A stretch of 64,000 nt of DNA from Haloferax elongans ATCC BAA-1513 (GTDB lineage: Archaea; Halobacteriota; Halobacteria; Halobacteriales; Haloferacaceae): contig NZ_AOLK01000022.1 in the NCBI RefSeq assembly GCF_000336755.1, positions 196,748 to 260,747 of the forward strand, given 5' to 3'. Of the stretch, positions 28,660 to 31,867 are shown piece after piece (within the stretch, counting starts at the first letter, position 1; each line of letters opens with the position of its first letter). The position numbers were made by a program, and so were the translations under genes. The notes under the pieces are model-generated. The model saw only the letters and a program-made list of their open reading frames with translations. It made no database searches and was not told the origin of the DNA.

Positions 28660-29922
28660 TCACTCGTGGACTTCGAGGACTTTGCCGGCCGCGATGGTCT
28701 GTCCCATGTCGCGGATGGCGAAGCTTCCGAGTTCGGCGATTTCTGACGACGGCTCGATGCTGAGTGGCTTCTGCGGCCGGAGCGTCACGATTGCGGCGTC
28801 GCCAGCCTTGATGAAGTCCGGGTTCTCCTCAGCGACCTCACCCGACGCGGGGTCGAGCTTCTGGTCGATTGATTCGAACGTACACGCGACCTGTGCCGTG
28901 TGAGCGTGGATGACCGGCGTGTACCCGGCGGTGATGACCGAAGGGTGCTGCATGACGACGATTTGTGCCTGGAAGGTCTTGGCGACCGACGGCGGGTCCT
29001 CGGCTGGACCACAGACGTCCCCGCGGCGGATGTCGTCTTTGCCGACACCGCGAACGTTGAATCCGACGTTGTCACCGGGGCCTGCTTCCGGGACCTCCTC
29101 GTGGTGCATCTCGATAGTCTTGACCTCGCCGCCCGCATCCGAGGGCATGAACCTCACATTGTCACCGGTTTTGAGAATGCCCGTCTCGACGCGGCCGACG
29201 GGAACCGTCCCGATACCGGAAATCGTGTACACGTCCTGAATCGGGATGCGAAGCGGTGCGTCGGTCGGCGGCGACGGTTCTGGAAGGTTGTTCAGCGACT
29301 CTAACACCGTCGGTCCATCGAACCACGACATGTTCTCCGAGTGCTCGGAGATGTTGTCCCCCTCGAACGCTGAGATGGGGATGAAGTGGGCGTCGTCCGA
29401 GTCGAACCGGACCTGCTGGAGGAGTTGCTGAACCTCCTCTTTGACCTGTTTGTAGGTGTTTTCGCTGTAGTCGACGACGTCCATCTTGTTGACCCCAACG
29501 ATGAGCGTCTCGATGCCCAGCGTCCGGGCGAGGAAGACGTGCTCGCGGGTCTGCGGCGCGACACCGTCGTCGGCGGCGACGACGAGAAGTGCGTGGTCCG
29601 CCTGCGACGCGCCCGTAATCATGTTCTTGACGAAGTCGCGGTGACCGGGCGTGTCGACGATGGTGAAGTAGTACTTGTCCGTATCGAACCGCTGGTGGGC
29701 GATGTCGATGGTGACGCCGCGCTCGCGCTCCTCTGCGAGGTTGTCCATCACGTACGCGAACTCGAACCCGGACTTCCCCTTCTCTTCAGCCTCTTCTCGG
29801 TGCTGCTCGATGATGTGCTCGGGTATACTGCCTGTCTCGAACAAGAGTCGGCCGACGAGGGTCGATTTCCCGTGGTCGACGTGCCCGATGATGGCCAGGT
29901 TTTGGTGTGGTTTGTCTGCCAT
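28660..29922 (-). CDS. tuf: Translation elongation factor EF-1 alpha
   Basis: A 420-residue GTPase that delivers aminoacyl-tRNA to the ribosome. G motifs: GHVDHGKST (G1, about 12-20), GVTIDIAH (G2), VDTPGHRD (G3), NKMD (G4) and SAFEGD (G5). Domains 2 and 3 are complete ([38 protein letters not shown]). Start ATG at 29922. It stands alone: no rpsL/rpsG/fusA/rpsJ nearby, where archaeal EF-1 alpha is normally found. It may be a second copy. A bacterial-type ProRS gene lies divergently upstream. Confidence 0.96.
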
Positions 29923-30138
29923 AGTATCCAGGGCGCTGTCGCCCATTCTAGTTGAATATGACATCCAAGAGTATATCCGTTGTCCCGAAATGTACGCTGT
30001 GAGAACCTGAAATTCGCCCGTTTAGATTTATCAATCAAGCTGATATTTCTTCCAGAACATATGTTCCTAGACACGATGTGTTAGAATACCGACGTGCGAT
30101 TGTCGGAGCCAAGTGCCAAGCTAGGTGTAACTGTCAGG

Positions 30139-30504: not shown

Positions 30505-30610
30505 GGGTTCCGCGATAGTCGTATCGACGCTGTTTCTCCCCGAGTACTGACGAGCAGTTCACTGTCATCTGTCGAGTTTCGTAGCAGCCGCCACGCCCGA
30601 GGTGAGCGCA

Positions 30611-31867
30611 ATGCGGCGTAGCGACGCGACGCTATTCACCAGCCGCGAGACCGAGGGCTGGGAGAACGACACAGTCGAACTCGCGGTGCGCGCCGGGCTC
30701 GTCAGACAGTTCGGAAGCGGGCTATTCGGGTTCACACCCACGGGCGAGCGCGTCCGGCGAAAACTCATCTCCCGAATCAGAACGGCGATGGACGGCATCG
30801 GTGGACAGGCAATCAGCCTCCCCAACCTCCAATACAGCGACGTCTGGAGACAGAGCGGTCGCTGGGAGAGTTTTGAAGGCGAGATGTTCACCTTCGAAAA
30901 CCGCGAGGGGCAGGCGATGTGTCTCGCACCTTCGCACGAAGAAGGAATCGTTCACCTCGTAGAGGGCACCGTTCGGTCCTACGAGGACGTTCCCTGCCTC
31001 CTGTATCAGGTCGAGCGGAAACACCGCGACGACCACCCCCGAAACGGGCTCTTGCGGACGAAAGAGTTCACGATGAAAGACGCCTACAGCCTCCACGCGA
31101 CCGACGCGTCGCTGGACGGGTGGTACGCTCGCGTCCGCGACGCCTACTGTCGCATCTTCGATGCCGTCGGCCTCGACTTCGTCGTCGTCGACGCGTCGAA
31201 CAGCGTGATGGGTGGCTCCACCTCCGAGGAGTTCGTCGCACCCGTCGAAACCGGGTCCGAGGAACTCGTCTACTGCCAAACTGACGGATGTCGCGTCGGC
31301 GTCACCGACGAATCACCCGGCACCACTCTCAGGGAGGGCGACACCTGCCCTGATTGCGGGGCGACCCTCGTCGCGGGCGAGGGCATCGAAGTCGGCCACG
31401 TGTTCAAACTCGGGACGCGATACTCCGAGCCCGCCGACCTCACGCTCGACACGGCCGACGGCTCGAAGCAACTCGTTCGAATGGGAAGCTACGGCATCGG
31501 CGTCGAGCGCCTCCTCCACACGCTCGTCGAACAACACGGCGACGACGACGGCCTCCGGTGGCCCGTCACCGACCACGGAAGCGTGGCCCCCTACGAGGTT
31601 TCGATTATCCCCCTCGAATACGAGGGCGACCTCGCAGACGCGGCCGACCGCATCTACGACGCGTGCGGTCGCGACGAGGTGCTTCTGTTCGACGACGACG
31701 ACCAGACTATCGGCGAGCGATTCGCCGAGAGCGACCTCCTCGGAATTCCCCGAAAGGTCATCCTCGGAAACAGCTTCCGTGAGACGGGCGATGTCGAACT
31801 CGAAACGCGAGACGGCGAGACGCGCTTCGTCGCACCCGAGGTGGTTTCGGACGTCGTCTCCGAGTAG
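30611..31867 (+). CDS. Bacterial-type prolyl-tRNA synthetase lacking the INS editing domain
   Basis: A 418-residue class II synthetase following the bacterial ProRS order, not the archaeal/eukaryal one. It has AGLVRQFGSGLFGFTPTGER, motif 1 to 2 region LAPSHEEGIVHLV, motif 2 LLYQVERKHRDDHPRNGLLR then KEFTMKDAYSLHA, motif 3 GSYGIGVERLL, and a complete anticodon-binding domain (VAPYEVSIIPLEY to LLGIPRKVILG). Bacterial ProRS normally carries a ~180-residue editing insertion between motifs 2 and 3; here that place holds ~45 residues with CQTDGC and CPDCG, a zinc ribbon. The usual RDE of motif 2 reads RDD. ATG at 30611 is used; GTG at 30602 is possible. It could charge tRNA-Pro or have a specialised role. 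Confidence 0.88.
   Translation: MRRSDATLFTSRETEGWENDTVELAVRAGLVRQFGSGLFGFTPTGERVRRKLISRIRTAMDGIGGQAISLPNLQYSDVWRQSGRWESFEGEMFTFENREGQAMCLAPSHEEGIVHLVEGTVRSYEDVPCLLYQVERKHRDDHPRNGLLRTKEFTMKDAYSLHATDASLDGWYARVRDAYCRIFDAVGLDFVVVDASNSVMGGSTSEEFVAPVETGSEELVYCQTDGCRVGVTDESPGTTLREGDTCPDCGATLVAGEGIEVGHVFKLGTRYSEPADLTLDTADGSKQLVRMGSYGIGVERLLHTLVEQHGDDDGLRWPVTDHGSVAPYEVSIIPLEYEGDLADAADRIYDACGRDEVLLFDDDDQTIGERFAESDLLGIPRKVILGNSFRETGDVELETRDGETRFVAPEVVSDVVSE

Follow-up and report, generated by a model that had tools for sequence, protein, structure and literature searches.

The window analysed here is a 64-kb stretch of DNA from Haloferax elongans, the genome assembly of which spans 3.95 Mb in 27 contigs; the nearest named relatives are Haloferax larsenii (95%) and other Haloferax (77–78%). 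It contains a gene for a prolyl-tRNA synthetase (ProRS) of the bacterial type, called ProRS2, the neighbours of which are genes for a RimK-like protein and EF-1alpha, and the gcv operon. The features of the gene are:

30611..31867, + strand: bacterial-type (P-type) prolyl-tRNA synthetase without INS, ProRS2 (TIGR00409, PF00587, PF03129, Foldseek)
31013..31087, + strand: motif 2 and its shortened loop, ERKHRDDHPRNGLLRTKEFTMKDAY (alignment of 49 clade members)
31274..31360, + strand: putative zinc-ribbon remnant, Cx4C...CPDC, where INS is missing (conserved Cys)
31595..31825, + strand: class IIa anticodon-binding domain, HGTP_anticodon (PF03129, residues 332–407, E 1.8e-8)

The open reading frame is intact. 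The longest frame, 30602–31867, starts with a GTG and encodes 421 amino acids. An ATG at 30611, three codons downstream of the GTG, gives a protein of 418 amino acids that begins MRRSDATLF. This ATG is the better start because it agrees with the consensus start of the clade (MRRS), and the coordinates 30611–31867 given in the preliminary description are therefore retained.

ProRS2 scores 357.6 bits against the bacterial NCBIfam model TIGR00409 (proS_fam_II), which is above the cut-off of 306.7, and 97.5 bits against the archaeal model TIGR00408, which is below the cut-off of 437. The Pfam matches are PF00587 and PF03129. The top matches in a sequence search of the PDB are bacterial ProRSs (5ucm, 8w8j, 5znj, 2j3l and 2i4l), and the best Foldseek match is the INS-less enzyme of R. 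palustris (2i4n, E 2.4e-35), which ranks above every E-type structure. The locus encodes a real P-type ProRS, and the initial assignment of a bacterial-type enzyme to an archaeon is borne out by the HMM scores, PDB search, fold and the tree described below. The order of motifs, catalytic residues, anticodon domain and fold are those of the INS-bearing bacterial P-type enzymes (TIGR00409; E. coli, P. aeruginosa 5ucm and E. faecalis 2j3l), to which ProRS2 is approximately 37–41% identical across the aligned parts. Unlike these enzymes, ProRS2 lacks INS, has a motif-2 loop that is one residue shorter (RDD-H-x-R instead of RDE-x-RPR) and resides in archaea with a G1:C72 tRNA-Pro. The archaeal/eukaryotic E-type ProRSs (TIGR00408; M. 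jannaschii 1nj8) also lack INS, and presumably share with ProRS2 the use of G1:C72 tRNA-Pro. They belong, however, to the other subfamily and have a C-terminal zinc domain; neither that domain nor the C-terminal extension is present in ProRS2.

The INS domain, which comprises approximately 180 residues, is absent between motifs 2 and 3 of ProRS2, leaving about 45 residues that contain a C-x4-C and a CPDC. In an alignment of 49 clade sequences, some of which are the same species taken from two collections, INS is missing from every member and a conventional INS is not seen. The linker that remains carries a C-x4-C followed by a C-x2-C in nearly all 49, and Cys225, Cys230, Cys249 and Cys252 (numbered from the GTG) are nearly invariant. 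Two sequences (L049 and L050) have a bacterial-like C-x2-C as the first pair, and one (L045) is missing the first Cys. An AlphaFold model of this region, residues 221–260, is confident, with a pLDDT of about 88–96.

Initially, the INS was proposed to have been replaced by a zinc ribbon. The absence of INS and the presence of the Cys motifs are both correct; the replacement is not, as Cys pairs are found at both edges of INS in 6 of the 19 sampled bacterial ProRSs, each of which retains the domain. These are the enzymes of Collinsella (CDDC...CPHCG), C. difficile, Streptantibioticus, Subdoligranulum, Paenibacillus and Nonomuraea (CHSC...CPRCG). Since bacteria that keep INS already carry these pairs, the alignment is most simply explained if the ribbon is ancestral and represents the base of the INS insertion, kept when INS itself was lost from the middle. 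This corrects the notion that a zinc ribbon was inserted. INS is also not universal among P-type ProRSs, as it is absent from the alphaproteobacterial enzymes (R. palustris 2i4l/2i4n, Caulobacter type; NF008979), which include the top structural match of ProRS2. In contrast to ProRS2, these enzymes form a separate clade, have no Cys pairs and retain RDE-x-RPR in motif 2. As the haloarchaeal clade is not nested with them, INS was lost independently.

The second distinguishing feature of ProRS2 is motif 2, which reads KHRDDHPRNG, where 19 of 19 bacterial references have RDE-x-RPR. Throughout the clade, the loop is one residue short and follows the pattern RDD-H/R-x-R. In E. coli numbering, residue 143 is deleted and E142 is replaced by Asp in 49/49 sequences; R144 is replaced by His in 46 and is Arg in 3; and T109 is Ser in 46 and Thr in 3. 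R140, E111, R146 and G148 are invariant in all 49. Thus, the RPR motif with R144 that is typical of P-type ProRS is not present in the clade, and RDD in place of RDE, noticed at the outset, is diagnostic of it (49/49). Neither this change nor the absence of INS is due to chance or sequencing error, because both recur in relatives at 52–95% identity. The loop itself is modelled at low confidence (pLDDT <50, residues 142–156).

In bacterial ProRS, R144 of the motif-2 loop contacts G72, and its mutation lowers kcat/KM more than 1000-fold (PMC12152171, PMC10164551). Cross-charging of tRNA-Pro between the P and E types is described as not occurring, with the 1:72 pair being read differently (PMC12152171; PMC10164551). 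Loss of the Arg is not the whole switch, as three of the 49 members retain an Arg that is possibly equal to R144. The loss of this tRNA-contacting residue and the shorter loop could instead mean that productive charging has been lost, and that ProRS2 activates proline for another acceptor or has a regulatory role; a haloarchaeal LeuRS2 with reduced charging provides a precedent (PMC9437257). We regard this as improbable, since the anticodon-binding domain is present, the loop change suits the different 1:72 pair of the host tRNA and no ProRS besides ProRS2 was found in two genomes, as explained below.

A scan of named GTDB genomes returned 22 haloarchaeal relatives of ProRS2 at 53–95% identity. 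Among 292 Halobacteria genomes, 27 carry ProRS2 (54–100% identity), and these belong to 13 genera and five families; the others contain weak matches only (E 1e-18 or worse), mostly to frames the size of ThrRS or E-type ProRS. No P-type ProRS was found outside the clade in a phylum-wide sample of 393 genomes at 1e-60, nor in four archaeal control genomes. One scan of viral contigs showed no viral carriage of ProRS2, and the relatives found on plasmids are ordinary bacterial proS genes of at most 41% identity. Separately, two adjacent proS genes are annotated in a Clostridioides difficile plasmid record (L136), so that a pair of ProRSs is also seen in a bacterium. The open-access text searched contains no description of a bacterial-type ProRS in haloarchaea.

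In a tree that included 19 bacterial sequences, the haloarchaeal ProRS2 clade is monophyletic (support 0.999–1.0) and branches next to all 19 on a long stem. Therefore, the ribbon-bearing version, with linker Cys in nearly all members, is a clade. A very long branch (2.0) separates the E-type sequences from the bacterial side of the tree, and it is on the latter that the clade lies, not among ordinary archaeal enzymes. Local support for the rooted node that joins bacteria and the clade is low (0.585) because the outgroup is distant. The GC3 of ProRS2 (0.80) and its acidic pI of 4.5 are host-like, so any transfer would be old. The closest precedent is the bacterial-form LeuRS of Halobacteriales, which is scattered across haloarchaea and branches outside the sampled bacteria (Andam et al. 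2012, PMC3436685), as does ProRS2. It differs in the amino acid used and in being present in most haloarchaea, versus about 9% for ProRS2.

Within Haloferax, dN/dS is 0.13–0.20 for ProRS2 and 0.04–0.12 for the archaeal enzyme, ProRS1. ProRS2 is under purifying selection, yet it evolves faster than ProRS1. One Haloferax genome (G076) has no ProRS2 gene and contains a 29-codon remnant (L247:5626–5712, E 3e-8) between EF-1alpha copy 2 and gcvT; since the remnant lies between the same two neighbours, the gene was lost from an ancestor that had it. In another genome (G040) there is no remnant, and EF-1alpha copy 2 is flanked on this side by different genes. The remnant and the faster evolution are what would be expected if ProRS2 were left over from a transient transfer and decaying without a function. 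This is very unlikely, as the frame is intact in 27 of 27 carriers, dN/dS is in the range given above and the GC3 and pI are host-like.

The genome of the window also encodes a full archaeal E-type ProRS, which was recovered on contig C13 in the genome search that had been suggested (548 bits to TIGR00408, above the cut-off). Because of its presence elsewhere in the genome, ProRS2 is a second enzyme here. The archaeal enzyme accompanies ProRS2 in 25 of the 27 carriers. The two other genomes, G007 (one contig of 2,085,946 bases) and G001 (three contigs), are of the same genus, are each rated 99% complete and have no match to TIGR00408 at 1e-40. When the archaeal ProRS was used as the query against that genus, only a ThrRS frame and ProRS2 itself were matched, at ~1e-11. 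Thus, one genus apparently has no ProRS other than ProRS2, and the two alternatives originally offered, a second enzyme or the only ProRS, each apply, the former in the window genome and the latter, apparently, in another genus. The ProRS2 proteins of G001 and G007 are basal, divergent members, about 52–54% identical to that of the window, so that the function of sole ProRS need not extend unchanged to Haloferax.

The tRNA-Pro genes were located by Rfam and BLAST searches. Those of G001 and G007 (UGG, CGG and GGG) start with GGG and end with CCA, which corresponds to G1:C72 and A73. The same ends are present in the UGG and CGG tRNAs of the window genome (the GGG isoacceptor is not among the genes recovered) and of two further carriers. 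As G001 and G007 must read proline codons with no other ProRS found, ProRS2 very probably works on archaeal G1:C72 tRNA-Pro; the argument is strong though indirect.

A different question is why most carriers keep both enzymes. ProRS2 may be an inhibitor- or stress-tolerant isoform, which charges tRNA-Pro and is kept because it escapes an agent that disables E-type ProRS, such as halofuginone-like Pro-A76 mimics or proline analogues. Such a role is consistent with the patchy distribution beside an intact archaeal ProRS, the loss of the gene in one Haloferax and the different active-site family, and duplicate synthetases that confer resistance are known, as for SerRS2 and albomycin (PMC9437257). 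Against this, the RimK-like, EF-1alpha and gcv neighbours do not form a resistance cluster, linked genes for biosynthesis or resistance were not seen, neighbourhoods vary between genera and ProRS2 is apparently the housekeeping enzyme in one genus. We offer tolerance tentatively, as the leading idea on why both enzymes are kept, and one that is compatible with the acquisition and remodelling proposed below.

The context of ProRS2 differs between genera and no neighbourhood is conserved beyond the genus level. The adjacent EF-1alpha gene (window 28660–29964, − strand) is a second copy, 86% identical to that on contig C11. Two copies are found in 14 of 14 sampled Haloferax, and one in most other sampled haloarchaea. 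A functional link to ProRS2 was considered and rejected, as all 14 have this copy with or without ProRS2. In a Haloarculaceae MAG (L017:1223–2470), EF-1alpha is directly downstream of ProRS2 in an arrangement unlike that of Haloferax, possibly by coincidence. Two full ThrRS genes are also present in the window genome (C13:14571–16238 and C18:104554–106212), the former ~16 kb from the archaeal ProRS, and ThrRS duplicates occur in G113, G076 and G276. Co-occurrence of ProRS2 with a second ThrRS was rejected, as only a few carriers have duplicates and so does a non-carrier.

The tRNA genes near ProRS2 bear on a further possibility. According to PMC9437257, which cites Vargas-Rodriguez et al. 2021, the ProRSx of Streptomyces has its own tRNA-ProA. 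In that account, ProRSx is, like ProRS2, a second P-type ProRS beside a housekeeping one, an arrangement that would fit an orthogonal mistranslation pair in which a dedicated, unusual tRNA is charged with proline. The only tRNA in the window is a tRNA-Val, 13 kb from ProRS2. ARAGORN gave matches at 5 of 24 carrier loci: one Ala, two His, one Lys and a doubtful Pro of 88 nt, with no kind in common. No counterpart of tRNA-ProA, that is, no Pro-like tRNA with an Ala or other non-Pro anticodon, was shown in the window or near ProRS2 at the 24 loci, and such a pair is extremely improbable. The earlier suggestions of an altered tRNA or a non-translational role are likewise unsupported, given the absence of an unusual tRNA near ProRS2 and the purifying selection.

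If Ala- or Cys-tRNA-Pro is proofread at all, a separate YbaK-like protein would do this in trans. Twelve genomes, made up of carriers and one non-carrier, were searched for a free-standing YbaK/INS-like protein (PF04073), and 11 have one. The two that were examined resemble TIGR00011 (YbaK), with scores far below the cut-off. One carrier of both ProRSs (G052) has no detectable free-standing tRNA_edit (PF04073) protein.

Taken together, it is likely that ProRS2 is a catalytically competent ProRS of bacterial lineage that was acquired by haloarchaea. The INS editing domain would have been lost and the motif-2 loop remodelled, so that archaeal tRNA-Pro (G1:C72, A73) is charged instead of the bacterial form (C1:G72, A73). 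The enzyme would be a second isoform that Haloferax and most carriers, which also have the archaeal ProRS, can dispense with; in one lineage, it would have displaced the native enzyme to become the sole ProRS. For the more specific proposal of a natural P-to-E switch, in which the one-residue loop deletion and, in most members, the loss of Arg144 permit charging of archaeal tRNA-Pro and full displacement of the native ProRS in one lineage, we consider the chances to be even.

The interest of ProRS2 is that it appears to be a P-type enzyme that has crossed the 1:72 barrier. If true, a P-type ProRS would be working on a G1:C72 tRNA in nature, and the small loop change found throughout the clade would be the candidate cause. 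Some species possess both enzymes, some the native one only and some, apparently, the newcomer only, which gives a testable system for the cross-domain replacement of an essential synthetase.
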